DNA from: Desulfarculus baarsii DSM 2075
GTDB taxonomy: Bacteria > Desulfobacterota > Desulfarculia > Desulfarculales > Desulfarculaceae
Direction of reading: 5' to 3'
DNA: 64,000 nt
Assembly: GCF_000143965.1 (NCBI RefSeq)
Contig: NC_014365.1
Location: forward strand, 3,251,501 to 3,315,500
A model generated the notes under the pieces. The model did no database searches, was not told the origin of the DNA, and was given only the letters and a program-made list of their open reading frames with translations. Positions 28,900 to 44,572 of the stretch are shown piece by piece (the stretch's first letter is position 1; each line of letters begins with the position of its first letter). The translations under genes and the position numbers were made by a program.

Positions 28900-30231
28900 A
28901 TGTCCAAGGCCCACGCCCATCACGACGACTATCTCATGCCAAAAGGCTATTCGTTCTATCTGTTTGGCTTGCTGTTTCTGCTTTATCTGTTCGACTACAT
29001 CGATCGCCAGGTGATCATCGCCCTGTTCCCCTACCTCAAAGACCCGGTGGACGGCTGGGGCCTGAGCAACGCCCAGTGCGGCATGCTGGTTTCGGCGGTG
29101 TATTGGTCGATCCTGATCTGCACCTTTCCCGTGTCGATCATCGTCGATCGCTGGAGCCGCAAAAAGAGCATCGGCATCATGGCCACCTTCTGGGGCTTGG
29201 CCACGCTGGCCTGCGCTTTCACGCAAAATTTCAGCCAGCTTTTCGCGGCCCGTACGGCCATCGGCGTTGGCGAGGCCGGCTACGCCCCCGGCGGCACGGC
29301 CATGATCTCGGCCATTTTTCCCGAGCGCATCCGTTCGCTGATGGTGGGCGTCTGGAACAGCTCCATCCCCCTGGGCATGGCCATGGGCATTGTGCTGGGC
29401 GGGCTGGTGGCCGGGACTTTTGGCTGGCGGCACGCCTTTGGCATCGTGGCCATCCCGGGGCTGATCGTGGCCATTTTGTTTTTCTTCGTGCGCGACTACA
29501 AGACGGTCAACCTCGATAAGAGCGACCATCCCGAGGCCAACCTGGCCAAGCAGACCAAGGCCATCCGCCAGAGCATGTCCAAGATGGACATCTTCCGCGC
29601 CTTTGCCGGCACGCCCTCGCTGCTTATGACCTATCTGGGCTTTTCGGGCATGATGTTTTTGTCCACCTCGCTGGTCACCTTCATGCCGACATATTTCCAC
29701 GACATCCAGGGTCTTGCCCACGATCAGGCCAACCTGATGACCAGCGGCGTGCTGTTGACGGCCATCATCGGCGCGCCCCTGGGTGGTTTCGTGGCCGATC
29801 GCTGGTTTCGCGTCAACCCCAAGGCCAGGCTGCTGGTGCCGGCCCTGTCGGCGGTGGTCTCGGCCGCGCTCTACATCATCGGCTTTGGTTTCATGGAAAA
29901 AGGCGCGTTGCAATACGTGGTCTTCGTCCTGGGCGGCGGCGTGAGCATCATGTACACATCCTCGGCCATCGCCGTGACCCAGGACGTCATTCACCCCGGC
30001 TTGCGGGCCATGTCCTACGCCCTGTGCGTCATCACCCAGCACATGTTCGGCAGCGCCATCGGCCCCTTCGCCACCGGGGCTTGGATCGACGCCCACGGCG
30101 TGGTTTCGGCGCTGTCGCTGGTGCCGGTGGTGGCCATCGTCTCGGGGGTGATCTTTTTCATCGGGGCCCAGTTTTACGAGCGCGACCTGGCCAAGGTGGC
30201 CAAGGTGCGCATCGAGGCGGAAGAGCGATGA
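28900..30231 (+). CDS. major facilitator superfamily transporter
   Basis: The 443-residue protein has 12 predicted transmembrane helices and MFS signatures: FDYIDRQVIIALFPYLK in helix 1, DRWSRKKSIG after helix 2, and a long central loop between helices 6 and 7 (about 205-230). It resembles the Spinster/ACS-type anion and sugar-acid symporters. It is 87 bp after the SDR gene and 25 bp before a Zn dehydrogenase, so it likely takes up the substrate of this cluster. The direction and substrate are not known. Confidence 0.85.
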   Translation: MSKAHAHHDDYLMPKGYSFYLFGLLFLLYLFDYIDRQVIIALFPYLKDPVDGWGLSNAQCGMLVSAVYWSILICTFPVSIIVDRWSRKKSIGIMATFWGLATLACAFTQNFSQLFAARTAIGVGEAGYAPGGTAMISAIFPERIRSLMVGVWNSSIPLGMAMGIVLGGLVAGTFGWRHAFGIVAIPGLIVAILFFFVRDYKTVNLDKSDHPEANLAKQTKAIRQSMSKMDIFRAFAGTPSLLMTYLGFSGMMFLSTSLVTFMPTYFHDIQGLAHDQANLMTSGVLLTAIIGAPLGGFVADRWFRVNPKARLLVPALSAVVSAALYIIGFGFMEKGALQYVVFVLGGGVSIMYTSSAIAVTQDVIHPGLRAMSYALCVITQHMFGSAIGPFATGAWIDAHGVVSALSLVPVVAIVSGVIFFIGAQFYERDLAKVAKVRIEAEER

Positions 30232-30256: not shown

Positions 30257-31279
30257 ATGAAGGCCGTAGTCTACCGCGCCGGCCGGGGCCTGGCCTGCGA
30301 AGACATCGCCGCGCCCCGGCCCCAGGCCGATCAGGTGTTGGTGCGGGTGATCAACTGCGGGTTTTGCGGCTCGGATCATTCGCTGGTCCAGAGCGGCATG
30401 CTGGCCGACGGCTACGTGCTGGGCCACGAGATCAGCGGCGTCGTCGCCGAGGTGGGCGCGGATGTTTCGGGCGAGCTGCTGGGCCAGCGGGTGACGATCC
30501 GGCCGACATATTGCGGCCAATGTCCCGAGTGCCTGGCCGGCAAGCAGATGTTTTGCCAGCAAAACCGCCGCAGCACCGGCATCGGCGACCTGCCCGGCGG
30601 CTTTGCCGAGCAGCTTGTCTGCTACCCCCAGATGCTCATCCCCATCCCCGCCGGCGTCGACAGCCAAAACGCCGCCCTGGCCGAGGTGTTCGCCACTGGC
30701 CTGCACGGCGTGAAGGTGGCCGGCCGCGCCGGCGGTTCGGCCCTGGTGCTGGGCGGCGGGCCCATCGGCCTGGGGTTGATCAAGCTGCTCAAGCTGCAAG
30801 GCTTCGGGCCGGTTGGCCTGGGCGAGCCCCAGGCGGCCAAGCGCGAGCTGGCCCTGAGCTGGGGGGCCGACTTTGTCCTGGACCCCTTGAGCCAGCCCCT
30901 GGGCGAGGCCGTCCTGGCCCACACCGACGGCCGGGGCTTCGACGTGGTTTATGAATGCGCCGGCGCGCCCGACAACGTCCAGGCGGCCATGGACGCCTGC
31001 GCCCGTTTCGGCGTGGTCTGCGTGCTCAGCGTCATGGCCCGGATGGCCCAGATCCTGCCGCTGACGCTCAACTTCAAGGAGATCATCCTCACCGGGGCCT
31101 ATGGCAACGACCACGCCGAAAACCGCCAGATCCTGAATTGGATGGCCCAAGGCCGCCTGGACGGCCGGGGAATGATCAGCGACCTGATCGGCCTGGAGCA
31201 ACTGCCGGCGCTCTACCAAGAGCGCATCCATCCGGGCCAGGCCATCAAGGCGATGCTGCGCGTGGGGCCGGAGTTCTAG
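30257..31279 (+). CDS. zinc-dependent medium-chain alcohol dehydrogenase
   Basis: This 340-residue MDR protein has a catalytic zinc site (C37 in CGFCGSDH and GHE at 56-58), a structural zinc site (C86, C89, C92, C100) and a Rossmann GGGPIGLGLIKLLKL motif. Size and motifs match the butanediol/sorbitol/threonine dehydrogenase group. It lies next to acoX and the acetoin-dehydrogenase-type genes, so 2,3-butanediol dehydrogenase is an attractive guess. Its stop is 3 bp before acoX. Confidence 0.85.
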   Translation: MKAVVYRAGRGLACEDIAAPRPQADQVLVRVINCGFCGSDHSLVQSGMLADGYVLGHEISGVVAEVGADVSGELLGQRVTIRPTYCGQCPECLAGKQMFCQQNRRSTGIGDLPGGFAEQLVCYPQMLIPIPAGVDSQNAALAEVFATGLHGVKVAGRAGGSALVLGGGPIGLGLIKLLKLQGFGPVGLGEPQAAKRELALSWGADFVLDPLSQPLGEAVLAHTDGRGFDVVYECAGAPDNVQAAMDACARFGVVCVLSVMARMAQILPLTLNFKEIILTGAYGNDHAENRQILNWMAQGRLDGRGMISDLIGLEQLPALYQERIHPGQAIKAMLRVGPEF

Positions 31280-31282
31280 CCC

Positions 31283-32296
31283 ATGCCCGCCGTGGGGATC
31301 ATCGCCAACCCGGCCTCGGGCAAGGATATCCGCCGTCTGGTGGCCCATGGCGCGGTCTGCGACAACAACGCCAAGGTCGGCCTGTTGCGGCGGATCATGG
31401 CCGGGCTGGTGGCCGTGGGCGCCGGCGAGGTGGTGGCCATGCCCGACGCCGGCGATCTGGCCCGGCGGGCGGCGGCCGAAATGGGCCCGGCCTGCCGGCT
31501 GGAGCTTTTGGCCATGACCCCCACCGACAGCGCCCACGACAGCACGAGCGCCGCCGGCCTGTTGGACCGGCGCGGCGTGGCCTGCCTGATCGTCCTCGGT
31601 GGCGACGGCACCTGCCGGGCGGTGGCCAAGGCCAGCGGCGACACGCCGCTTCTGGCCGTCTCCACCGGCACCAACAACGTCTTTCCCACGGCGTTGGAGG
31701 GCACCCTGGCCGGCCTGGCCGCCGGCCTCGTGGCCACCGGCGCGGCCGGCCCGGCCTCGTGGCGCGCGCCCAAGCTGGAGATTATCGACCACGGCCGGGT
31801 CATCGACATGGCCTTGGTCGACGTGGCCGTCACCGCCCATTGCCAGACCGGCTGCAAGGCCCTCTGGCGGCCCGAGAGCCTGCGCCGGCTGTTTCTGACC
31901 AGGGCCGAGCCCACGGCCATCGGCCTTTCGGCCATCGGCGGTTGCCTGTCGCCCATGGCGGCCGATAGCGGCCAGGGCCTGGAGCTTGGCTTCGGGCCGG
32001 GCGGCCGGATGGTGCTGGCGACGATGGCGCCGGGGCTGGTGGCCCGGCTGGCCGTCAGCCGCTGGCGTCGATTCGCGCCGGACCAGGAACTGGTCATCGA
32101 CGGGCCGGCCACCCTGGCCCTGGACGGCGAACGCGAAATCATCATCAACCCCGGCCAACGCCTGGGCCTGCGCCTTTGCCTGGCGGGCCCCCGGGTGCTG
32201 GACGGAGCCAAGATTCTGGAGACGGCCGCCCACGCGGGGGCCTTCATGGCCCTGGCCGCGCGGCGCGCCGACCAAGACATATCGCCTCATTTTTAG
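31283..32296 (+). CDS. acoX: AcoX-like NAD kinase-family protein
   Basis: The 337-residue protein belongs to the ATP-NAD kinase superfamily by its GIIANPASGKDIRRL start and GGDGT motif (106-110), with STGTNNVFP following. AcoX proteins are found almost only with acetoin dehydrogenase genes; their reaction is not settled. The gene starts 3 bp after the dehydrogenase and 28 bp before acoA. A true NAD kinase is less likely because it is usually shorter and is not encoded in catabolic clusters. Confidence 0.82.
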   Translation: MPAVGIIANPASGKDIRRLVAHGAVCDNNAKVGLLRRIMAGLVAVGAGEVVAMPDAGDLARRAAAEMGPACRLELLAMTPTDSAHDSTSAAGLLDRRGVACLIVLGGDGTCRAVAKASGDTPLLAVSTGTNNVFPTALEGTLAGLAAGLVATGAAGPASWRAPKLEIIDHGRVIDMALVDVAVTAHCQTGCKALWRPESLRRLFLTRAEPTAIGLSAIGGCLSPMAADSGQGLELGFGPGGRMVLATMAPGLVARLAVSRWRRFAPDQELVIDGPATLALDGEREIIINPGQRLGLRLCLAGPRVLDGAKILETAAHAGAFMALAARRADQDISPHF

Positions 32297-32324: not shown

Positions 32325-33305
32325 ATGGAGATCACGAACGAACTGATGATCAAGCTCTACACCAACCTGGCGCGCACCAGGGCCTTTGACCAGGCCGCGG
32401 TCAAGTGGTTGGCCGGCGGCAAGCTGCTTTCGTTCTACCACCCGGCCCTGGGCGGCGAGGCCCCCGGCGTGGGCGGCACGACCATCCTGCGGCCCGACGA
32501 CGTCATCTATCCCCACCTGCGCGGCCACGGCCTGCCGCATCTGATCGGCAAGGGCGCCGACCCCAAGACCTACATGGCCGAACACTGCGGCCGGATCACC
32601 GGCTCGGGCGGCGGCCTGGGCGGGGTCCACGCGGCCTACGACGAGCTGGGCATCTATGGCGGCGGCGGCACCATCGGCAGCGCCTTCCCGCTGTCGGTGG
32701 GCTGGGGCGTGGCCTGCAAGAAAAACGGTCGCGGCCAAGTGGTGGTCTGCTTTTTCGGCGACGGCTCGTCCAACCGCGGCCCCTTCCACGAGGCCGCCAA
32801 CATGGCCGCCGTCTGGAAGCTGCCCATTGTCTGGGTCTGCGAAAACAACGGCATCGCCCAGTACGTGCCGATCAAGGACGCCTATCCCCTCGACGACATC
32901 GCCAGCCTGGCCGCCGGCTACGGCATGCCCGGCGTGGTCGTCGACGGCCAGGACGTGGTGGCCGTGGCCGAGGCCGTGGGCGCGGCGGTGGAGCGGGCCC
33001 GCCAGGGCCTGGGGCCGGCCATGGTCGAGTGCAAGACGGCCCGTTTTGGCTCGCACGGCATCGGCAACCCCGACAACTCCCACGGCGCGCCCCGCGATCC
33101 CAAGGAGATCGAGGAGCTGCGCAAGCGCGATCCGCTGGAGATCATGGAGCGGCGCCTCATCAGCCAGGGCGTGTTGAGCGCCGAGGGCCTGGCCGCCATC
33201 AAGCAGGCCGCCCAGCAAGAGGTGGCCGAGACCGAGAAATTCATCGACGAAAGCCCCTTCCCGGACGATCCGGCCATGCTCGACCGCGCGGTCTACGCGC
33301 AGTAA
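32325..33305 (+). CDS. acoA: acetoin dehydrogenase-type E1 alpha subunit (TPP-dependent)
   Basis: The 326-residue E1 alpha subunit binds thiamine diphosphate through GDGSSNRGPFHEAANMAAVW with a downstream NN pair (the GDG-x-NN motif). The HPALGGEAPGVGG and LRGHGLPHLIGKG segments match E1 alpha chains. With acoB it decarboxylates or cleaves a 2-oxo or hydroxyketone substrate and passes the acyl group to lipoyl-E2. The neighbour acoX argues for acetoin dehydrogenase; a branched-chain or pyruvate dehydrogenase cannot be excluded from sequence alone. Confidence 0.87.
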   Translation: MEITNELMIKLYTNLARTRAFDQAAVKWLAGGKLLSFYHPALGGEAPGVGGTTILRPDDVIYPHLRGHGLPHLIGKGADPKTYMAEHCGRITGSGGGLGGVHAAYDELGIYGGGGTIGSAFPLSVGWGVACKKNGRGQVVVCFFGDGSSNRGPFHEAANMAAVWKLPIVWVCENNGIAQYVPIKDAYPLDDIASLAAGYGMPGVVVDGQDVVAVAEAVGAAVERARQGLGPAMVECKTARFGSHGIGNPDNSHGAPRDPKEIEELRKRDPLEIMERRLISQGVLSAEGLAAIKQAAQQEVAETEKFIDESPFPDDPAMLDRAVYAQ

Positions 33306-33323: not shown

Positions 33324-34286
33324 ATGCGAGAGATAATGTATCTGGAGGCCATCAAGGAGGCCCTGGCCGAGGAGCTGGAGCGCGACGAAAAGGTCTTCAT
33401 CATTGGCGAAGGCGTGCAGACCGGCGCTTTCGGCACCACCTCGGGCCTGGTGCAGCGTTTCGGCCCCGAACGGATCATGGACGCGCCCCTTTCCGAGACG
33501 GCCATCGCCGGCGTGGCCGTTGGCGCATCGCTCATGGGCTATCGGCCGGTGGCCGACATGATGTTCGCCGACTTTCTCTATTGCTGCGCCGACGAGGTCT
33601 TTCTCAAGGCCCCGCAGTGGCGGCTGATCCAGGGCGGCAGCCAGAGCCTGCCCTGCGTGTTCATGGCCTCCATCGGCGGCTATCGCAAGCTGGGCAACGA
33701 GCACTCCCAGTGCCCGACCTACCTGGCCCTGCACAATCCGGGCATCAAGTGCGTCTGCCCCTCCAACCCCTACGACGCCAAGGGCCTGCTGAAAACGGCC
33801 ATCCGCGACAACAACCCGGTGCTGTTTTTGCACCACAAGGGCCTGCTGGGCATGAAGGGCGAAGTGCCCACGGAAGACTACACCGTGCCCTTTGGCCAGG
33901 CGGCCATCCTGCGCGAGGGCACGGATGTGACCATCGTGGCCACCTCATTCATGACCTTCTGGGCCACCGCCGCCGCCGACCTGTTTGCCGGCCAGATCAG
34001 TTGCGAGGTCATCGACCCGCGCACGCTGGAGCCTTTCGACCTGGACACGGTGCTTAAATCGCTGGAAAAAACCAACCGCCTGGTGATCATCGACGAAGAC
34101 ACCGAACGCTGCGGTTTCGCCGCGGAGCTGGGCATGCAGATCATGGAGCACGGCTTCGACCTGCTGGACGCGCCCGTGCAGCGGGTCTGCGCCAAGAATT
34201 ATCCCATCCCCGGCGGCGTGATGGAAAAATACGTCCTGCCCCAGCCCGAGTGGGTCTTGGCGGCCATCGAAAAGGTTATGCAGTAG
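33324..34286 (+). CDS. acoB: acetoin dehydrogenase-type E1 beta subunit
   Basis: The 320-residue E1 beta chain starts MREIMYLEAIKEALAEELER and has EGVQTGAFGTTSGLVQRFGPERIMDAPLSE, a stretch strongly conserved in transketolase-type beta subunits. EHSQCPTYLALHNPGIK and the C-terminal transketolase C domain (EVIDPRTLEPFD) complete it. It follows acoA by 18 bp with an AGGGAG site and forms the alpha2beta2 E1 component. Confidence 0.88.
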   Translation: MREIMYLEAIKEALAEELERDEKVFIIGEGVQTGAFGTTSGLVQRFGPERIMDAPLSETAIAGVAVGASLMGYRPVADMMFADFLYCCADEVFLKAPQWRLIQGGSQSLPCVFMASIGGYRKLGNEHSQCPTYLALHNPGIKCVCPSNPYDAKGLLKTAIRDNNPVLFLHHKGLLGMKGEVPTEDYTVPFGQAAILREGTDVTIVATSFMTFWATAAADLFAGQISCEVIDPRTLEPFDLDTVLKSLEKTNRLVIIDEDTERCGFAAELGMQIMEHGFDLLDAPVQRVCAKNYPIPGGVMEKYVLPQPEWVLAAIEKVMQ

Positions 34287-34302: not shown

Positions 34303-35565
34303 ATGGCTAGCGATATCGTCATCCCCAAGCTTGGCATGACCATGGCCAGCGCCAAGCTGGCCGCCTGGAAGGCCGCCGAAGGTGAGTGGATCACCGAGGG
34401 CCAGCCGGTGATGGTCATCGAAACCGAAAAAGTGACCCAGGACGTCGAGGCCCTGGCCGACGGATTTTTGCACATCCTGGCCGCGCCGGGCGCGGTGGCC
34501 CAGGTCGGCGAGGCCGTGGGCCAACTGGCCGCCGACGAGGCCGAACTCAAGGCCCTGCAAGCGGCGGCCCCCGCCCCCGAGGGCCTGGCCGCCGCGCCAG
34601 CCGCCGCGCCAAGCGCCGGCGAGCCGGCCGCCCCGGCCGCGCCCGGCGGTCGGGTCAAGATCACGCCCCTGGCCAAGAAGATCGCCCGCGAAAACGGCCT
34701 GGACTACAGGCGCCTCACGGGCAGCGGCCCAGGCGGGCGCATCAAAAGGGCCGACGTGGAGCGGGCCCTGAAGGAAGGCCCGCCGCCCGCGGCCGAGGCC
34801 CCGGCCGCCCAGTCGGCCGCCGCCTGGCCCGGCGAGGTCATCGAGGGCAAGCGGGTCAAGGACTCGCTGCCGCTCAGCGGCATCCGCGCGGTCATCGCCG
34901 AGCACATGCACAAAAGCCTGCAAAATTCGGCCCAGCTTTCGGCCATGGGCGAGTTTGACGTGGCCGAACTGGTTCGCCTGCGCCAATCGTTGATCGCCCA
35001 CCAGGAGATGATCGGCGCGCGGATTTCCTACACCGATCTGCTGGTCTACATCGTGGCCAGGGCGCTGAAAAAAAACCCGCTGATCAACTCCAGCGTGGTC
35101 GGCGATCAGATCAAGCTGTGGGAGGACATCAACATCGGCGTGGCCGTGAGCCTGCCCATGCAAAAATACGACGCCGGCCTGATCGTGCCGGTGATCCACG
35201 ACGCCGACAAGCTCAGCCTCACCGAGATCAGCCTGCGCCTGAAGGACCTGCGCCGGCGCTGCCAGGAGGGGACCATCGGCCTGGAAGACCTCGGCGGCGG
35301 CACCTTCACCATCTCCAACGTCGGCGGCTTTGGCCAGGGCTACGTCTTCACCACGCCCATCATCAACCAGCCCCAGGCGGCGATCTTGGGCGTGGGGGCC
35401 ATCCTCGACCGGCCGGTGGTCCAGCCCGACGGCCAAATTGGCGTGGGCAAGCTGATGAACTTCAGCCTGACCTTCGACCACCGGGCCATCAACGGCGCGC
35501 CCATCGGCTTGTTCCTGGGCACGATCCAAGAGATGATCAAGACGCCGGGCCTGCTGCTGGCCTGA
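34303..35565 (+). CDS. acoC: dihydrolipoamide acyltransferase (E2)
   Basis: The 420-residue E2 has one lipoyl domain with K43 (ETEKVTQDVEA) as lipoylation site, an Ala/Pro-rich linker (about 88-110), an E1/E3-binding domain (ITPLAKKIARENGLDYRRL) and a catalytic 2-oxoacid acyltransferase domain with the DHR motif (FDHRAINGAP). Most acoC proteins have a single lipoyl domain like this. It is 16 bp after acoB. It moves the acyl group from E1 to CoA. Confidence 0.9.
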   Translation: MASDIVIPKLGMTMASAKLAAWKAAEGEWITEGQPVMVIETEKVTQDVEALADGFLHILAAPGAVAQVGEAVGQLAADEAELKALQAAAPAPEGLAAAPAAAPSAGEPAAPAAPGGRVKITPLAKKIARENGLDYRRLTGSGPGGRIKRADVERALKEGPPPAAEAPAAQSAAAWPGEVIEGKRVKDSLPLSGIRAVIAEHMHKSLQNSAQLSAMGEFDVAELVRLRQSLIAHQEMIGARISYTDLLVYIVARALKKNPLINSSVVGDQIKLWEDINIGVAVSLPMQKYDAGLIVPVIHDADKLSLTEISLRLKDLRRRCQEGTIGLEDLGGGTFTISNVGGFGQGYVFTTPIINQPQAAILGVGAILDRPVVQPDGQIGVGKLMNFSLTFDHRAINGAPIGLFLGTIQEMIKTPGLLLA

Positions 35566-35632: not shown

Positions 35633-37003
35633 ATGTTTGATGTTTTGGTGATCGGCGGTGGGCCGGGCGGTTACGCCGCGGCCATCCGCGCGGCCCAGTT
35701 GGGGGCCAAGGCGGCCCTGTGCGAGGCCGCCGAGTTGGGCGGCGTCTGCGTCCACCGTGGTTGCATCCCCAGCAAGACCTGGGCCCAGGCGGGCCACCTG
35801 CTGGGCCAGTTCAAAAAAGCCGCGCTATTTGGCATAACGGCCAGCGTGGACGGCCTCGACCCGGCCGTCGTGGTCGCCCGCAAAAACGGCGTGGCCGCCG
35901 ACATCGGCATGGGCATGCAGGCCCTTTTGGCCAACAACGGCGTGCAATTGCTCAAGGGCCGGGCCGTGCTCAAGGCCCCCGGCCTGGCCAGTGTCGAGGG
36001 CAAGGACGTCCAGGCCAAGGCGATCATCCTGGCCACCGGCGCCTCCCACGCCAAGTGCGATCTGCCCGGCATGGCCGAACTGGCCATCGGCCCGGACCAG
36101 GCGCTCAACCTGCAAAAGCTGCCCGCCTCGGCCTTTATCTGGGGCGGCGGGGCCATCGAGTGCGAAATGGCCGGCTGGCTTGGCGCCATGGGCGTGCAAG
36201 TGACCCTGGCCTGCCAGGGCCCACGCCTGCTGCCCGGCGAAGACGCCGACCTGGGCCAGCGCCTGGCCGGGGCCCTGAAGGACCAAGGCGTCAAGGTGCT
36301 CACCCGCGCCGCCTTGGCCAGCGCCCAAAAGCAGGGCGCGGCCTTGCGGGCGGTGCTGGGCGGCAAGGCCGAGCAATTCATCGACGCCGAGATCATCGTC
36401 AGCGCCGAACGCCGGCCCAACACCGCCGGCCTGGGCCTGGAGGCCCTGGGCGTGGCGTTGAACGCCGACGGCGGCATAAAGGTCGATGAGCGCATGCAAA
36501 CCAGCGCGCCGGGCGTTTTCGCCATCGGCGATTGCACCGGCGGCCGCATGCTCAGCCACGGCGCGTCCTACATGGCCGTCATCGCCGCCGAAAACGCCAT
36601 GGGCCGCCAGAGCGCCTACGATCCGCGCCTGGTCTGCCGGGGCCTGTGGACCACGCCCCAGGTGGCGGCCGTGGGCCTGAGCGAGGCCGAGGCCGAGGAC
36701 CAGGGCTACGAGGTCGAGACCGGCGATTTTCCCTATTCCATCAACGGCCTGGCCATGCTGAGCGCCCAGGGCGAGGGCAACGTCAAGGTGGTCATGGAGG
36801 CCAAATACGGCGAGATTCTGGGCCTGCACATCGTGGGCGCGGCGGCCACCGAGCTGATCGGCGAGGCCTCGCTGGCCATCCAGTTGGAGTGCACCGCCGA
36901 GGAACTGGCCCGTGGCGCGCGCCTGCACCCGACGTTTTCGGAAACCATCGTCGACGCCGCCCGCGACGCCATGGGCTGGGCGCTCTACCTGCCAAAGAGG
37001 TAA
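35633..37003 (+). CDS. lpdA: dihydrolipoamide dehydrogenase (E3)
   Basis: This 456-residue flavoprotein reoxidises dihydrolipoyl groups with NAD+. It has the FAD-binding GGGPGGYAAA motif (8-17), redox-active Cys pair C39 and C44 (CVHRGC), FAIGDCTGG in the second FAD site, and the C-terminal interface His-Glu pair in LHPTFSE. It starts 67 bp after acoC and is followed 9 bp later by the lipoate genes. It can serve both the E2 and the stand-alone lipoyl carrier downstream. Confidence 0.93.
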   Translation: MFDVLVIGGGPGGYAAAIRAAQLGAKAALCEAAELGGVCVHRGCIPSKTWAQAGHLLGQFKKAALFGITASVDGLDPAVVVARKNGVAADIGMGMQALLANNGVQLLKGRAVLKAPGLASVEGKDVQAKAIILATGASHAKCDLPGMAELAIGPDQALNLQKLPASAFIWGGGAIECEMAGWLGAMGVQVTLACQGPRLLPGEDADLGQRLAGALKDQGVKVLTRAALASAQKQGAALRAVLGGKAEQFIDAEIIVSAERRPNTAGLGLEALGVALNADGGIKVDERMQTSAPGVFAIGDCTGGRMLSHGASYMAVIAAENAMGRQSAYDPRLVCRGLWTTPQVAAVGLSEAEAEDQGYEVETGDFPYSINGLAMLSAQGEGNVKVVMEAKYGEILGLHIVGAAATELIGEASLAIQLECTAEELARGARLHPTFSETIVDAARDAMGWALYLPKR

Positions 37004-37012
37004 ACTGGGATC

Positions 37013-38539
37013 ATGACTAGCGGCGCGGCCCAAAAACTGGTGGTGGAGGACTGGGGGCTTTTGGCCTACGACCAGGCCGCCCGGCGTCAGGACGAACTGG
37101 CCCGGCAAAGGGCCCGGGGCCTGGCGGCCGATCGGCTGGTGTTTGTCGAGCACCCGCCCACGGTGACCCTGGGCCGCGGCGGCGGCCCGGCCGATCTGCG
37201 CCTTGGCCCCGAGCTTCTGGCCGCCCGCGGCGTGGCCCTGGCCCACAGCGACCGGGGCGGCTTGGCCACCTTTCACGGGCCGGGCCAGTTGGTGGCCTAT
37301 CCCATCGTCGAGTTGCAAGAGCGCGACCTGCATCTCTACGTCAACCGCCTGCTGGAGGCCGCCGCCGAGGTGGCCCGCGCCTTTGGCCTGGAGCCCGAGC
37401 GCGATCCCGATCAGCCCGGCCTGTGGCTGGCCGGCCGCAAGCTGGCCAGCCTGGGCGTGGCCGTCTCGCGCTGGGTGACGCGCCACGGCGTGGCCATCAA
37501 CGTCAACAACGACCTGGCCGGGTTCGATCTGATCGTTCCCTGCGGCCGGCCCGGCCAGGTCGTCACTTCATTGGCCCAAGAGCTGGGCCGGCCGGTGGAC
37601 CTGGCCCGGGCCAAGGACGTCTTTGCCCAGGCCTTCAGCCGGGCCTTGGGCTTTGCCGCGCCGCCGCTGGGCATGGGCCGCAAGCCGCCCTGGCTCCGCA
37701 AGCGCTATCACGGGCAAACGGCCATCGAGCAAATGGAAGGCCGCCTGGAGCGCCTGCATCTGGCCACCGTCTGCCAAAGCGCCCACTGCCCCAATCTGGG
37801 CGAATGCTTCAACCGGGGCACGGCCACCTTCATGATTCTGGGCCGCCAATGCACGCGGGGCTGTCGCTTCTGCGCCGTGGACCACGGGCCGACCAGCCCG
37901 CCCGACCCCGACGAGCCCCAGCGCCTGGCCCAGGCCGCCGCCGACATGGGCCTGCGCCACGTGGTGGTCACCTCCGTCACCCGCGACGACCTGGCCGACG
38001 GCGGCGCGGCCCACTTCGCCGCCACCATCGCCGCCCTGCGCGCGCGCCTGCCCCAGGCCACGGTGGAGGTGCTCACGCCGGATTTTCTGGGCCAGGGCGC
38101 GGCCATCGACGCCGTTTGCCAGGCCCGGCCCGACGTCTACAACCACAATGTCGAGACGGTCCCCCGCTTGTATCCGGCCGTGCGGCCCCAGGCCGATTAC
38201 GCCCGCTCGCTGGCCGTGCTGGCCCGCGCGGCCGCTCAAGGCCTGGCGGCCAAATCGGGCCTGATGCTGGGCCTGGGCGAGACCGACGCCGAACTGCGCG
38301 CGGTGCTGGCCGATCTGCTGGCCGCCGGCTGCCGCTGTCTGACGCTGGGCCAGTACCTGGCGCCATCGGCCAAGCACGCGCCGGTGATGCGTTTCGTGCC
38401 GCCTTTCGAGTTTGACCACTGGGCGGCCGTGGCCCGACGGATGGGCTTTGACCAGGTGGCCGCCGGGCCGCTGGTGCGCAGTTCCTACCTGGCCGACCAG
38501 ATGCTGGTCGCGCCGCGCCACGGGGAGGGCCGCCGATGA
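37013..38539 (+). CDS. octanoyltransferase-lipoyl synthase fusion (LipB-LipA)
   Basis: This 508-residue protein contains both steps of lipoate synthesis. Residues 1-215 are Lip[23 protein letters not shown] (81-92), active-site K143 (GRKLASLG) and C177 (VPCGRPG). Residues 225-500 are LipA: the start KPPWLRKR, auxiliary cluster C254, C259, C265, radical SAM cluster C280, C284, C287 (CTRGCRFC), and C-terminal RSSY. All catalytic residues are present. Normally these are two genes. It starts 9 bp after lpdA and overlaps the next gene by 4 bp. Confidence 0.92.
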
Positions 38540-40266
38540 AAAAACTGGCCGTTTTCATCTTGCTGAGCGCGCTGTTGGCCGCCTGGCCGACATGCGCCAA
38601 GGCCGGCTGGCTCATCGAGCAGGGGCCCTTGCACGCCTCGGCCCACGGCCAGCTCTCGTGCCAGGATTGCCACCAGAACGTGGCCGACAGCCAGCGCCAC
38701 CCGGACCTGATCCGCCTCAACCAAATCCCCGACCAGACCGCGCGCGCGCAAATGTGCGCCCAGTGCCACGACGACGCCCAAACCATCGCCCAAAGCGGCC
38801 GGCACGGCGGGCGCGAAATTACCAGCCCGGCCCAGGCGGCCAACTGCCTGGCCTGTCACCGGCCCCATCACCAGCCGCCAGCCGCCGCGCGTCCCAAGGC
38901 CTTCAACCCGGCCCGGCCGATGATCGGCCAGTGCGGGGCCTGTCACCGCCAACGCGCCAAGCTGCCAGGCCCCGCCGCCGCCGACGCCAAGTGCGCCGCC
39001 TGCCATCTGCAAGACGCCAGCCGGCCGGCGGCCTCGCGCCAAAACCTTCAGGCCATGTGCCTGAGCTGCCACGACCGCCACCAGGGCCAGACCATCGACG
39101 CCGTGCGGGTCGACGTGGCCGATCTGGCGCGATCGCCCCACGCCGATCTGAGCTGCCTGGACTGCCACCGCCTGGCCGCCCAATACCCCCACGACGGCCA
39201 AAAGGCCGTGGATTGCCGCCAGTGCCACCAGCCCCACCGCGAAAGCCAGATCCACGACGCCCACGCCGGCGTGTCCTGCCAGGCCTGCCACCTGGCGGCG
39301 GCCATTCCCACCCGCCAGGGCGGGCAGGTGCTCTGGCGGCTGCAACGGCCCGAGATCGGCCCGACCAAGGCCCATCAACTACGAGCGCAAAGCGACCAGG
39401 ACTCGTGCCGCCGCTGCCACGCGCCGGGCAACCAGGTGGGCGCCGCCGCGACGGTCTTGCCGGCCAAAAGCGCCCTGTGCATCCCTTGCCACGCCGCCAC
39501 GCTGACGGTGGGCGATTGGCCCAGCGGCCTGGCCCTGGCCGCGCTGATCGCGGGGTTGCTGTTGCGCATTAGCCTCTGGCTGGCCGCCCCGGCCAAGGCC
39601 GCGCCCCTGCACGCGCTGGGCAAACGGCCGACCGCGCCCTTGGGCCGGCGTTGGTGGGCCGGGCTCAAGGCCTTGGCGCTCGACGGCCTGTTGCAGCGCC
39701 GCCTGTGGCGGGCCGCCAAGGGCCGCTGGCTGATCCACGGGCTGATCTTTTTCCCGCTGCTGGGCCGCATGATCTGGGGCCTGGCCGCCCTGGCCGCCTC
39801 GCGCTGGCTGGCCGACTGGCCACTGACCTGGCGGCTGCTGGACAAAAACGACCCCCTGACGGCCTTTGTCTTTGACCTGGGCGGGGCGCTGCTGGTCTGC
39901 GGCGTGCTCTTGGCCGTGGGGCGCCGTTTGCGGGCGCGGGGGCCCAGGCTGCCCGGCCTGCCCCGGCCCGATTATCCGGCCCTGATCCTGCTGGGCCTGG
40001 CCATTGTCAGCGGCTTCTGGCTGGAGGGCGCGCGCATGGCCATGACCGGCGCCCAGCAGCCGCTGGCCTTCGTGGGCGCGGCCCTGGCCGCCGGCATGGC
40101 CGGTTGGGACGATCTCCCCCGGCTTTATGGCTGGTTCTGGCAGGCCCACGCCATCATCTGGTGCGCCTTCGTGGCCTATCTGCCCTTTGGCCGCATGCTG
40201 CACATGATCATCACGCCGGCGGTCTTGGCCGTCAACGCCGCCGCCAACGCCGGCCACGACCAATAA
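38536..40266 (+). CDS. 11-haem cytochrome c fused to NarI-like cytochrome b membrane domain
   Basis: This 576-residue protein has a signal peptide (about 1-23), then 11 CxxCH haem-c motifs spread over about residues 40-335, and then a membrane part with five or so helices. The last helices ([36 protein letters not shown]) resemble NarI/TmcC-type cytochrome b subunits with haem-ligating His residues. Such proteins exchange electrons between periplasmic cytochromes, quinones and cytoplasmic Fe-S subunits. Its start overlaps the lipBA stop by 4 bp, and an HdrD-like protein is encoded two genes on. Confidence 0.87.
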
Positions 40267-40278
40267 AGGAGGCCACGC

Positions 40279-40698
40279 ATGAATATCGGCGGTCACCAGA
40301 TCCCCGAAGAGCTCTACTACGACAAGGAGCACTATTGGCTGCGGCCCGAGGGCGAGCTGCTGGTCATGGGCATGACCGATTTCGCCCAAAAGCTGGCTGG
40401 CGAGATCGTCTACGTCCAACTGCCCCTGGAGGGAAAGGCCTTGTCGGCCGGCAAGAAATTCGCCAAGGTCGAATCGGGCAAGTGGGTGGGCAAGGTCTTC
40501 GCGCCACTGGATGGCGAACTGGTCGAGTCCAACATCGCCCTGGAGGACAACCCCGGCCTGATCAACTCCGACCCCTACGGACAGGGCTGGATGTTCAAGA
40601 TCCGGCCCGCCGACATGGCCGATCTCGACGGCCTGATCCACGGCGCGGCGGCCATCCAGGCCTGGATGACCGAGGAAATGGCCAAGCACGGCAAATAG
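40279..40698 (+). CDS. stand-alone GcvH-like lipoyl carrier protein
   Basis: The 139-residue protein has a glycine-cleavage H-protein fold. It starts IPEELYYDKEHYWLRPEGE and carries K68 in VESGKWVGKVFAPLDGEL at the position of the lipoylated Lys. GLINSDPYGQGWMFKIRP is typical of H proteins. No GcvT or GcvP genes are nearby, so it is not likely a normal glycine-cleavage protein. It lies between the haem protein and an HdrD-like protein and may carry electrons or acyl groups as lipoate-binding proteins do in the sHdr sulfur pathway. An AAAGGAGG site precedes it. Confidence 0.87.
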   Translation: MNIGGHQIPEELYYDKEHYWLRPEGELLVMGMTDFAQKLAGEIVYVQLPLEGKALSAGKKFAKVESGKWVGKVFAPLDGELVESNIALEDNPGLINSDPYGQGWMFKIRPADMADLDGLIHGAAAIQAWMTEEMAKHGK

Positions 40699-41907
40699 GT
40701 GAATGACGTGGCGTTGCATTGTTACACGCGCGGGCAAATGTTGCAGATCGACGCCTGCACCGGTTGCGGGCTGTGCGTGGAGGTCTGCCCGGCGGTGGCG
40801 GCCTCGGGCGATGGCGCGCTGTCGGCCCTGGCCCGGCTGGCCGGCCTGCGCCGCTTGAACCAGGGGCGGGCCGGCTTGCTGGCCCGTTTGCTGGCCCGTC
40901 GTCGGCCCACGGCTCAGGCCCTGGCCGGCTTTGGCCGGGAGGTCTTTGCCTGTACGCTCTGCGGCCGCTGCCAGGAGGTCTGCCCGGCCGGCCTGGGGCT
41001 GAAGGATCTGTGGATCAGCCTGCGCCAGGACATGGTCGGCCAGGGCGCGGCCTCGCCAAAGGTCGAGATGATCCGTGGCAATCTGCTGGAAAGCCACAAC
41101 GTCTTTGCCGAGGACAACGACGAGCGCGCCGAGTGGGTCGAGGACGTGCGCGGCGCGCCCGATGACGGCTTCGTGCGGCCACGGGCCAAGGTGGTCTATT
41201 TCACCGGCTGCGTGGCGGCCTATTTTCCCATGGCCCAAAAGATCGCCGCGGCCATGGCCCAGCTCTGCCAGCGCTTTGGCGTGGATTTCACCCTGCTGGG
41301 GCCCGATGAATGGTGCTGCGGTTTTCCCCTGCTGGGCGCCGGGCTCAAGGATCTGGCCGGCCAGTTTATCGAGCACAACATCCAGGCCGTGGCCGCGCGG
41401 GGGGCCGAGACGGTGGTCTTCGCCTGCCCGTCGTGCTACCAGATGTGGCGCGAGCACTATCCCCGGCGCTTCAAGCTGGCCCACGCCAGCCAGTTCATGG
41501 CCGGGCTTTTGGCCCAAAGCCCGCCCGAGGCCCCGCCCCTGACGCTGACCGTGACCTATCACGACCCCTGCGATCTGGGCCGGGGGGCCGGCGAATACGA
41601 AGCTCCGCGTCGGGTGCTCCGGGCGCTGCCGGGCGTGCGCCTGGTGGAGCTGGCCCACAACCGCCGCGACTGCCGTTGTTGCGGCGGCGGCGGCAACCTG
41701 GAGATGATCGACCCGGCGCTCTCGGCGGCCATCACCGCAGCCAAGATCGACGAGGCGCTGGCCAGCGGGGCCCAGGCCGTGGTCACCTCCTGCCAGCAGT
41801 GCGTGCGCACGATGACCGGCCATGTCCGCAAAAACAAGCTGCCCCTGGAGGTGCTGGACCTGACCCAGCTCACCCTGCGCGCCCTGACCAACAAGGCCGC
41901 CCCGTGA
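40699..41907 (+). CDS. HdrD-like Fe-S protein with two CCG domains
   Basis: This 402-residue protein has two 4Fe-4S motifs (C20, C23, C26, C30 and C85, C88, C91, C95) and two CCG domains: FTGC...WCCGFP...CPSC and YHDPC...CRCCGGGG...CQQC. These occur in the catalytic heterodisulfide reductase subunit HdrD, GlcF, LldE and TmcB, where they bind a non-cubane 4Fe-4S cluster that handles disulfide or quinone chemistry. A GTG start abuts the stop of the lipoyl carrier. ATG 40738 is an alternative. It probably docks to the haem/cytochrome b protein encoded two genes upstream. Confidence 0.87.
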   Translation: MNDVALHCYTRGQMLQIDACTGCGLCVEVCPAVAASGDGALSALARLAGLRRLNQGRAGLLARLLARRRPTAQALAGFGREVFACTLCGRCQEVCPAGLGLKDLWISLRQDMVGQGAASPKVEMIRGNLLESHNVFAEDNDERAEWVEDVRGAPDDGFVRPRAKVVYFTGCVAAYFPMAQKIAAAMAQLCQRFGVDFTLLGPDEWCCGFPLLGAGLKDLAGQFIEHNIQAVAARGAETVVFACPSCYQMWREHYPRRFKLAHASQFMAGLLAQSPPEAPPLTLTVTYHDPCDLGRGAGEYEAPRRVLRALPGVRLVELAHNRRDCRCCGGGGNLEMIDPALSAAITAAKIDEALASGAQAVVTSCQQCVRTMTGHVRKNKLPLEVLDLTQLTLRALTNKAAP

Positions 41908-42950
41908 GCCTGGCCCTTTACGATCTGGGCAAAGTTCCCTGGGCCGACAGCCAGCTCCTCTACCACGCCATGGCCCGCCTGGGCCGCCAGGGCCTGGCCC
42001 TGGTCTCGCCGGCCAGCCCCTATGTCTGCGTGGGCTTTCATCAAGACGCCGCCCAGGAGGTGGACCTGGACCATTGCCGCCAGGCCGGGCTACCGGTCTT
42101 TCGCCGGGAGGTGGGCGGCGGCGCGGTCTATCTGGACGGCCGGCAATATTTTTTCCAGATCGTGCTCCGGCGCGACAACCCGTTGATCCCGGCCCGGCGC
42201 GACGAATTCTACGCGCGCTTTCTGGCGCCGGTGGCCCGGGCCTACGGCCGGATCGGCGTCGAGGCCCGCCTCAAGCCGGTCAACGACCTGCTCTGCGGCC
42301 AGCGCAAGGTCTGCGGCTCGGGGGCCGGCGAGATCGGCGAGAGCGTGGTCTTTGTCGGCAACATGATCATGGATTTCGACTGCCAGGCCATGGCTCGCGT
42401 GCTGCGCGCCCCCGACGAGAAATTCCGCGACAAGGCCCAAAAAACCATGGAGGCCAACATGGGCTCCATCCGTGGCCTGCTGGGCTCGGCCGCCGATCGT
42501 TGGACCGAGGGCGCGCTGAACCAGATCATGGCCGAGGAGTTCGCCAAGCTCCTGGGGCCCCTGGAGCCGGCCCGGCCCGACCAGGCCCTGCGCGCCGAGA
42601 TGGATCGCCTGGCCCAACGCATGCTGGCCCCCCAGTGGCTGCTGCGCGGCCGTCGGCCCTCCGCCGGCCGCCGGCTCAAGATCCGCGCCGGGTTGGAGCT
42701 GGTCCAGCGCCTGCACAAGGCCCCGGGCGGGCTGCTGCGCCTGGAGATGGAGCTGCGCGACGGTCGCATCGGCCAGGCGCGCCTGTCCGGCGACTTTTTC
42801 GCCTATCCGCCCCAAGCCGTCGAGGCCCTGGAAGCCGCCCTGGAAGGCGCGGGCCGCGACGATCTGCCGACGATAATCCACGAGTTTGTCGGCCAAAATC
42901 AGCTGCCCGGCGTGGGCGCGCAAGACTGGCTGACCCTGCTGGCCTTTTAA
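41904..42950 (+). CDS. lplA: lipoate-protein ligase A-like protein
   Basis: The 348-residue protein attaches free lipoate to target proteins. It has the ligase motifs RREVGGGAVYLDGRQYFFQIV and NDLLCGQRKVCGSGAGEIGE, in which the RKVCGS Lys is the catalytic/ATP-handling residue, and a C-terminal LplA accessory domain (LEMELRDGRIGQARLSGDFF). The GTG start at 41904 overlaps the HdrD-like stop (GTGA). The frame is open much further upstream, but that part is out of frame with the HdrD-like gene and not real. It gives the cluster a second lipoylation route besides LipB. Confidence 0.88.
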   Translation: MSLALYDLGKVPWADSQLLYHAMARLGRQGLALVSPASPYVCVGFHQDAAQEVDLDHCRQAGLPVFRREVGGGAVYLDGRQYFFQIVLRRDNPLIPARRDEFYARFLAPVARAYGRIGVEARLKPVNDLLCGQRKVCGSGAGEIGESVVFVGNMIMDFDCQAMARVLRAPDEKFRDKAQKTMEANMGSIRGLLGSAADRWTEGALNQIMAEEFAKLLGPLEPARPDQALRAEMDRLAQRMLAPQWLLRGRRPSAGRRLKIRAGLELVQRLHKAPGGLLRLEMELRDGRIGQARLSGDFFAYPPQAVEALEAALEGAGRDDLPTIIHEFVGQNQLPGVGAQDWLTLLAF

Positions 42951-43103: not shown

Positions 43104-43760
43104 GTGAACGATGTCGGACGCCTGCACGTGTTGACCGACACGGTCTTGCAGACGCGGTTTTCCGCCGTTGAACTGGCCCGCCTGGCCATCCGCGGCGGGG
43201 CGGACGTGATCCAATTACGCCAGAAAGACGGCGCGACCAACCAGATGATCGACACCGCCCGCCAGCTCAAGGCCGTCTGCGCCGGGGCCGGGGTGGATCT
43301 GATCATCAACGACCGCCTCGACGTGGCCATGGCCGTCGACGCCGATGGCGTCCACCTGGGCCAGGACGATTTTCCCATCAACAAGGCCCGCCGCATGTTG
43401 GGGCCGGGCAAGGTCATCGGCGGTTCGGCCGATTCGCTGGAGGAAGCCCTGCAATGCCAGGCCGACGGGGCCGATTACGTCGGCTTTGGCCCGGTGTTTC
43501 CCACCACGTCCAAGGACGACGCCGGGCCGGTGGCCGGGCTGGAGGCCTTGGCGCGGGTGGCGGCGGGGTTGCGCATCCCGGTGGTGGCCATCGGCGGGGT
43601 GAACGCTGGCAACGCCGCCCAAATCATGGCCGCCGGGGCCCACGGACTGGCGGTGATCTCGGCGGTGTGCTGCCAGCTTGACCCCGAGGCGGCCACCACC
43701 GCGCTGCTGCGGGCCATGGGCCTGGCCGCTGCTCCGGCCGCCGCCGCCCGGAAAGGATGA
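43104..43760 (+). CDS. thiE: thiamine phosphate synthase
   Basis: ThiE joins the pyrimidine and thiazole halves to make thiamine phosphate, the precursor of TPP used by the AcoAB E1. The 218-residue protein has [53 protein letters not shown] and [12 protein letters not shown], all typical ThiE motifs. The GTG start at 43104 has an AAGGAG site. A gap of 153 bp separates it from lplA; no TPP riboswitch is seen there. Confidence 0.93.
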
Positions 43761-44572
43761 CCACGATGGGCCACAACGCCGGCGCGGCCCGCGCCCTGGA
43801 GCTGGTGCGCCAACAAGCGCCCCTGGTGCACAACATCACCAATTATGTCGTCATGAACAACACCGCCAACGCCCTGCTGGCCTGCGGGGCCTCGCCGGTG
43901 ATGGCCCACGCCCGCCAGGAGGTCGAGGAGATGGCGGCCATGGCCGGGGCGCTGGTGATCAACATCGGCACGCTCAGCCCGCCGTGGATCGAAGCGATGC
44001 TGGCCGCCGGCCAAAAGGCCAACGAAGTGGGCGCGCCGGTGGTGCTCGACCCCGTGGGCAGCGGGGCCACCACCCTGCGCACCGAGACGGCCATGCGCCT
44101 TCTGGCCGAGATCGACATCGCCGTGGTGCGGGCCAACGCCTCCGAGGCGCTTTCTCTGCGGCCGGGCCTGGCCGGGGCGGGCAAGGGCGTGGACTCGCGC
44201 CACCAGGTGGACGAGGCCCTGGAGGCGGCCAAGTCCTTGGCCTTGGAGTTGGGCGCGGTGTTGGCCGTCACCGGCCAGGTCGATCTGGTCACCGACGGCC
44301 GGCGGGCCTTGCGCGTGGCCGGCGGTCACGCGCTGATGGGCCGGGTCACCGGCATGGGCTGCACGGCCACGGCCCTGGTCGGGGCCTTTTTGGCCGTCGA
44401 ACCCGACCCCCTGGCCGCCGCCGCCGGGGCCTTGGCCTATCTGGGCCTGGCCGGCCGGCAAGCCGCCGCGCGGGCCACGGGGCCGGGCAGCTTCCAGGTG
44501 GCGCTGTTGGACGCCCTCTACAACATCGACCCGCCCAGCCTGCAAACGGCGGCCCTGATCGCCGAGGCCTGA
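43757..44572 (+). CDS. thiM: hydroxyethylthiazole kinase
   Basis: ThiM phosphorylates hydroxyethylthiazole for salvage of thiamine. The 271-residue protein has [52 protein letters not shown] and [17 protein letters not shown] with the catalytic Cys of the ribokinase-like fold. It overlaps thiE by 4 bp (ATGA), so the two are co-translated. With thiE it supplies TPP from salvaged thiazole. Confidence 0.94.

Follow-up and report, generated by a model that had tools for sequence, protein, structure and literature searches.

In Desulfarculus baarsii DSM 2075, a GcvH-fold protein predicted to carry lipoate is encoded directly before an HdrD-like protein, and the two genes stand between those for a membrane cytochrome and a lipoate-protein ligase. 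We consider it probable that the cytochrome, carrier, HdrD and ligase constitute an electron-transfer module, in which the lipoyl carrier, cycling between dithiol and disulfide, would deliver electrons to HdrD for transfer to the membrane cytochrome. Lipoate is known for its substrate-channelling function in five multienzyme complexes and, since 2018, in sHdr sulfur oxidation. The carrier described here most likely serves respiration by carrying electrons as a dithiol, a use of lipoate without earlier demonstration. In the open-licence PMC literature, searches for GcvH together with heterodisulfide reductase in sulfate reducers and for lipoyl electron carriers yielded no account of this module. 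Among known systems, the module is nearest to sHdr-LbpA in idea and to HdrDE and EtfD in hardware.

The carrier/HdrD pair in its operon

The window analyzed is a stretch of 64,000 nucleotides (C1:3251501-3315500) from a genome that consists of a single contig of 3,655,731 bases. The gene run around the pair lies entirely on the + strand, with spacings mostly below 85 bp or small overlaps. Its features, and those of one related cassette outside the window, are as follows:

28900-30231, +, transporter-like gene, first of the operon-like run
30257-31279, +, zinc-type alcohol dehydrogenase (PF08240, PF00107)
31283-32296, +, NAD-kinase-like protein (PF01513), AcoX-like, a name taken from acetoin operons
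32325-33305, +, E1 alpha-like subunit of a thiamine-diphosphate dehydrogenase, assigned from its translation and its place before E1 beta
33324-34286, +, E1 beta (Transket_pyr, Transketolase_C)
34303-35565, +, E2 acyltransferase with one lipoyl domain (PF00198 236.8 bits, PF00364, PF02817)
35633-37003, +, E3-like dihydrolipoyl dehydrogenase (TIGR01350 408.2 bits, cut-off 408.8)
37013-38539, +, LipB-LipA fusion of octanoyltransferase and lipoyl synthase (NCBIfam lipA 365 bits, lipB 126 bits, both above cut-off)
38536-40266, +, membrane cytochrome CytCB with 11 CXXCH haem c motifs, a NarI-like b-type domain and a signal peptide-like N-terminus
40279-40698, +, GcvH-fold lipoyl carrier, 139 aa, without cysteine (PF01597, GCV_H, 134.7 bits)
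40480-40482, +, codon for K68, the residue presumed to be lipoylated, in the motif ESGKWVG (sequence and alignment to E. coli and T. thermophilus GcvH)
40699-41907, +, HdrD-like protein, 402 aa (PF02754 twice; two CCG and two [4Fe-4S] ferredoxin motifs)
41904-42950, +, LplA-like lipoate-protein ligase (PF21948 108.4 bits)
43104-44572, +, thiamine synthesis genes ThiE (43104-43760) and ThiM (43757-44572) (TIGR00693 and TIGR00694, above cut-off)
L228:7416-12424 (C1 about 3357415-3362423), cassette of a third carrier, sLpl, LipT, LipS1 and LipS2

The carrier and HdrD reading frames have 0 bp between them, the ligase overlaps the HdrD stop codon by 4 bp, and ThiE-ThiM follows the ligase in the same direction after a 153-bp gap. 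Reading frames, Pfam matches and alignment agree with the initial annotation that a GcvH-fold protein with an intact lipoyl lysine directly abuts an HdrD-like protein, and the two PF02754 matches, with full cysteine sets, bear out the two CCG domains assigned to the latter. Two further elements of that annotation have to be revised. The carrier was called lone and paired with HdrD, but the same run contains E1alpha, E1beta, E2, E3, LipB-LipA, the cytochrome and the ligase; the pair is part of a dehydrogenase operon of the acetoin/2-oxoacid type that depends on thiamine and lipoate. HdrD was called a subunit of the membrane type, but it is itself soluble, and the membrane part is the adjoining gene at 38536-40266. 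Conservation of a NarI-like/multihaem gene next to the pair keeps the proposed path of electrons from lipoate to the membrane plausible, although the proposal had overlooked the operon. Acetoin and 2-oxoacid dehydrogenase operons likewise bring together genes for E1alpha, E1beta, E2, E3, an AcoX-like protein and lipoate synthesis; to our knowledge, none includes a GcvH-HdrD-cytochrome module.

Searches of the complete D. baarsii genome at E<=0.001 returned no match to GcvP (PF02347) or GcvT (PF01571), while among 14 control genomes the gcvP and gcvT searches were positive in 10 and 11, respectively. The missing glycine-cleavage partners noted for this stretch are thus missing genome-wide. The E2 at 34303-35565 is the only PF00198 match of the genome, which has three GCV_H-family genes. 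The second of these, at C1:467477, comes after genes that by eye resemble lgt and ileS. The third, at C1:3362058 and with the motif ESGKWVG, lies outside the window and heads the cassette listed above, in which sLpl is DUF116-like; with this cassette, D. baarsii has both LipB-LipA and LipS1/LipS2 lipoate assembly.

Conservation of the pair and of its neighbours

A search for HdrD in 395 genomes of the phylum, together with a scan of named genomes, yielded 103 distinct orthologue loci. Seven of these had too little upstream sequence and were set aside, leaving 96 informative loci. At 89 of them, in several classes of the phylum, HdrD has a same-strand GcvH-family gene no more than 700 bp away, while the remaining seven have no carrier within 700 bp and count against the reading as a module. 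Because 89 of the 96 informative loci keep the carrier near HdrD, the pairing is not due to chance. Named hosts include Desulfocarbo, Dethiosulfatarculus, Desulfocicer vacuolatum, strain NaphS2 and several Desulfovibrio.

Within 6 kb of the 89 carrier/HdrD loci, CytCB was found at 68 and a NarI-like protein without haem c at nine; lipoate ligase at about 59 and LipB-LipA at 16; a second HdrD at 33 and GlcD at 29; and E3 at 17, E2 at 11 and LarA at eight. LipS1/LipS2/LipT genes adjoin the module at about 21 loci; in D. baarsii, the ligase is adjacent and LipS1/LipS2/LipT lie elsewhere. The constant part of the module is therefore cytochrome-carrier-HdrD-ligase, and the variable part is the dehydrogenase. 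Loci of the E1/E2/E3 type (the window, L055, L057-L059, L061 and, in Desulfovibrio, L154) are almost identical in gene order. In the alternative type, GlcD is accompanied by a second CCG protein and, at some loci, by a lactate-racemase-like LarA, and this second HdrD also has the full cysteine set. The nickel-dependent lactate-racemase-like LarA stands by the module at L042, L045, L051, L060 and others, which suggests lactate or another 2-hydroxyacid as the substrate at those loci.

Two further arrangements of GcvH-like and CCG proteins came to light. At four loci in Desulfarculaceae (L185:19-7602, L182, L183 and L187, in G146, G262, G302 and G172), a carrier with the ESGKW motif is followed by a GlcD-CCG fusion of about 860-910 aa; at the first of these, HdrA-like, HdrC-like and HdrB-like genes come before, a gene order suggesting that a lipoyl carrier may serve soluble HdrABC as well. 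At L199:2075-5962 (G273), an HdrD-like protein precedes two proteins of ~330 aa that each contain a GcvH-like part, recognized in one by NCBIfam gcvH at residues 161-279 and in the other by BLAST only.

To see which lipoate users accompany the module, we turn to 30 module genomes. A gcvP match is absent from nine; those with gcvP have, in nearly all cases, a separate gcvH beside it. Seven of the nine gcvP-free genomes also gave no E2 match, and PF00364 matches in these seven are of the biotin type (AMKM or similar) where the lysine motif is readable; in a few partial matches the motif cannot be read, and a GcvH-family protein of G215 has ETHK. Two of them, G208 and G252, are 98% complete drafts of one genus, whose single GCV_H gene is the neighbour of HdrD and whose single lipoate-ligase (Lpl) gene is adjoined by LipT and LipS1; LipS2 was not found beside LipS1 in the flanks examined. 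Neither genome gave a gcvP, E2 or E3-like match (the best E3 score was 145 bits and partial, versus 300-535 elsewhere), and in neither was an electron donor for the carrier identified. In this one lineage, known from draft genomes, HdrD is the sole evident redox partner whose gene adjoins that of the lipoyl carrier. G215 likewise gave no E3-like match. It also encodes, beside a TSCPD-domain protein, a GcvH-related protein (L197:11509-12027; NCBIfam NF045810, GcvH_rel_desulf, above cut-off), another GcvH relative with no glycine cleavage partners adjoining.

Carrier, HdrD and cytochrome

The carrier scores above cut-off with both NCBIfam gcvH and PF01597, and K68, the counterpart of the lipoyl lysine in the aligned GcvH of E. 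coli and T. thermophilus, is predicted to be lipoylated. We placed the carrier in a tree of 139 rows that included GcvH encoded next to gcvP and the GcvH of E. coli, T. thermophilus and M. tuberculosis, and no LbpA. GcvH of the glycine cleavage system (the gcvP-adjacent proteins and the three references) forms a separate clade (support 100/99), and the window carrier falls outside it, in a clade of 82 HdrD-module carriers (92/96). Seven module carriers of family f9 make up a second group, likewise outside the glycine-cleavage clade. Because the tree is built on few columns and contains some long branches, we make no use of its finer branching order. The initial annotation had staked its reading on the carrier standing apart from true GcvH, and the tree places it apart. 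Consistent with this grouping, the lipoyl-lysine motif is ESGKW in every module carrier and ES[VT]K in glycine-cleavage carriers with a readable motif. An assignment as ordinary glycine-cleavage GcvH was rejected on the position in the tree and on the absence of gcvP and gcvT from the genome.

Most module carriers have one cysteine, in the motif DCYG (80 of 90 carriers). The window carrier reads DPYG and has none; in its NSDPYG stretch the proline is as in glycine-cleavage GcvH, and it is among the few module carriers without the DCYG cysteine. LbpA proteins, some archaeal ones excepted, strictly conserve two cysteines, located towards the N- and the C-terminus (PMC6067878), and the place of the DCYG cysteine is unlike either. 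Judged by this published pair of cysteines, the window carrier is not an LbpA, and we keep the sHdr system as an analogy; a LipS1 search of plasmids, aimed at LbpA reference sequences, gave no match. The analogy extends to the sHdr-LbpA system of Hyphomicrobium denitrificans in two respects: a GcvH-like single-domain lipoate protein is encoded with Hdr-like CCG proteins, and relatives with the module carry similar Lpl, LipS1/LipS2 and LipT assembly genes. The parallel with sHdr drawn in the initial annotation gains from the latter, as these genes, first known from sHdr, accompany about a quarter of the relatives. The module differs in having an HdrD-type subunit with a membrane cytochrome, organic-acid dehydrogenase neighbours and no cysteine pair in the carrier, and no sHdr subunit or sulfur transferase was recognized among the annotated genes of the D. 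baarsii operon.

HdrD has eight ferredoxin cysteines (C20, C23, C26, C30 and C85, C88, C91, C95) and two CCG motifs, CX34CCX35CX2C (C171, C206, C207, C243, C246) and CX35CCX36CX2C (C291, C327, C328, C365, C368). All 18 cluster cysteines, 10 CCG and eight ferredoxin, are invariant in the 103 orthologues save for single alignment gaps. This alignment sustains the Hdr-type character attributed to the protein, which keeps every cysteine for two Hdr-type catalytic noncubane clusters. CCG proteins of the GlcF, GlpC and EtfD type accept electrons from flavins, so CCG domains alone are no proof of thiol chemistry. The AlphaFold model (pLDDT 85) finds its best structural match in EtfD (Z 30.7, rmsd 2.9 over 386 residues); it also matches HdrB (Z 22-23) and aligns with a Helicobacter pylori hypothetical protein of known structure (PDB 3kwl; Z 24.7, 319 residues, 10% identity); matches to Asp/Glu racemases, with an rmsd of 6 to 9 A and far below EtfD and HdrB, were disregarded. 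In EtfD, Thr539 and His583 replace residues that make Hdr clusters catalytic (PMC13083937). The aligned residues of HdrD are C207 and S245, and HdrD thus combines an architecture like that of EtfD and HdrDE with an Hdr-like active site. On the cysteine set and these two residues we rejected an EtfD-type non-catalytic CCG protein, and with NF045796 HdrD scores 65.2 bits against a cut-off of 400, far too low for DsrK of DsrMKJOP.

CytCB keeps R397, H401, H538 and H556 in 100% of 65 relatives, and the three invariant histidines lie in the transmembrane region. Its Pfam NarI score of 21.5 bits is just under the cut-off of 22.9, and a haem-c-free relative exceeds the cut-off with 29.5. The fold of the membrane part weakly matches EtfD and NarI, a match that we treat as suggestive because AlphaFold models the haem region poorly (mean pLDDT 50.5). 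Methanogen HdrDE likewise has two complete CCG motifs and two ferredoxin clusters, with a b-type membrane partner to which CytCB would correspond, and mycobacterial EtfD (the ETF:menaquinone oxidoreductase) forms a wire of NarI-like haem b, ferredoxin and CCG clusters to menaquinone, like the one predicted here. In contrast to HdrDE, the module is bacterial, has a presumed lipoyl-protein substrate, and its membrane partner bears an added 11-haem c domain; in contrast to EtfD, which has Thr/His at the catalytic positions and ETF as the donor, it has C207/S245 and separate polypeptides.

Electron flow and its alternatives

We propose that the ligase, or the LipB-LipA fusion, would attach lipoate to K68, and that the lipoyl arm would accept two electrons as dithiol from a dehydrogenase. 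In the window, the neighbouring E2 would be the donor, its dihydrolipoyl group undergoing thiol-disulfide exchange with the carrier; in relatives, the donor may be a GlcD-type 2-hydroxyacid dehydrogenase acting through the second HdrD, which would reduce the lipoyl disulfide. The carrier dithiol would then be oxidized at the two noncubane clusters of HdrD, and electrons would pass through its two cubane clusters to haem b in the NarI-like domain, from where menaquinone, the 11-haem c domain or both would receive them. From sequence we infer lipoylation, contact between carrier and HdrD, electron flow and its direction. The partners are oxidative, and this together with textbook potentials leads us to favor oxidation of the dithiol into the membrane. 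Lipoamide lies near -290 mV and lactate/pyruvate near -190 mV; lactate as the donor would thus be slightly uphill, which counts against the proposal.

The module can be likened to the pairs ETF/EtfD, DsrC/DsrMKJOP and CoM/CoB thiols/HdrDE, the soluble partner proposed here being a lipoyl protein. In DsrMKJOP, HdrD-like DsrK, NarI-like DsrM and haem c DsrJ serve a small carrier with a redox-active thiol arm; that carrier is DsrC, whereas the module carrier is of the GcvH fold with predicted lipoate.

Electrons could also flow in reverse, from menaquinol or periplasmic cytochromes through CytCB and HdrD to the lipoyl disulfide, and on through E3 to NAD or to a reductase. This direction has been proposed onto the GcvH-like LarG of Pelobacter carbinolicus, beside the Act complex; as a lipoyl carrier, LarG would transport electrons by its disulfide in the cytoplasm, in connection with a membrane complex (PMC3543383). 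By that description LarG resembles the module carrier, but it is tied to the Act complex and E3 and runs in reverse, with no HdrD mentioned (PMC3543383). The multihaem c domain could accept electrons from periplasmic H2 or formate oxidation, and E3 is present in the D. baarsii operon. We nevertheless judge reverse flow unlikely: the partners are mostly oxidative dehydrogenases (GlcD and the acetoin/2-oxoacid type), E3 is near just 17 of the 89 loci, and G208, G252 and G215 have no E3-like match.

The carrier might instead be an octanoyl/lipoyl way-station that helps to lipoylate the adjacent E2, with HdrD an unrelated neighbour. E2, LipB-LipA and the LplA-like ligase are all in the operon, and B. 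subtilis GcvH has such a role, with LipM and LipL (PMC6067878). However, the constant neighbours are HdrD and the cytochrome rather than E2 (CytCB at 68 loci, E2 at 11), and an E2 match is lacking altogether in seven module genomes, which makes a relay of this kind quite improbable.

We give still less weight to the idea that HdrD and CytCB are an ordinary EtfD/GlcF-like quinone reductase fed by a flavoprotein, with the GcvH gene there for an unrelated reason. EtfD as the best structural match of HdrD and the frequent GlcD neighbours would suit it, but the pairing at 89 of 96 loci over several classes, a carrier clade and motif of its own and the Hdr-type cysteine set leave it little room. Least probable is a sulfur-handling carrier of the LbpA type, whose lipoyl group would ferry sulfur intermediates for an Hdr-like sulfur-oxidizing or trafficking enzyme: a GcvH-like carrier with an Hdr-like protein, and LipS1/LipS2/LipT/Lpl at about a quarter of loci, recall that system (PMC6067878, PMC10332631), but the window carrier lacks the two conserved LbpA cysteines, no sulfur-transferase or sHdr gene was recognized next to the module, and its neighbours are organic-acid dehydrogenases.

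Returning to the proposed flow of electrons from a lipoyl dithiol into the membrane, we see an even chance that the lipoyl protein is a dedicated respiratory carrier in many sulfate reducers and their relatives and, in some lineages, the only use of lipoate. In such genomes, a gcvH annotation should not be taken as a sign of glycine cleavage. sHdr is present in only 42% of LipS1/LipS2-containing bacteria (PMC10332631), and the module, if it works as proposed, would offer a possible answer to the purpose of LipS1/LipS2 lipoate synthesis in bacteria without sHdr. Work as a mobile electron carrier in anaerobic respiration would be a further role for lipoyl proteins; the respiratory network of sulfate reducers, with DsrC, ETF and cytochrome c3, would thereby gain another branch, based on thiols.
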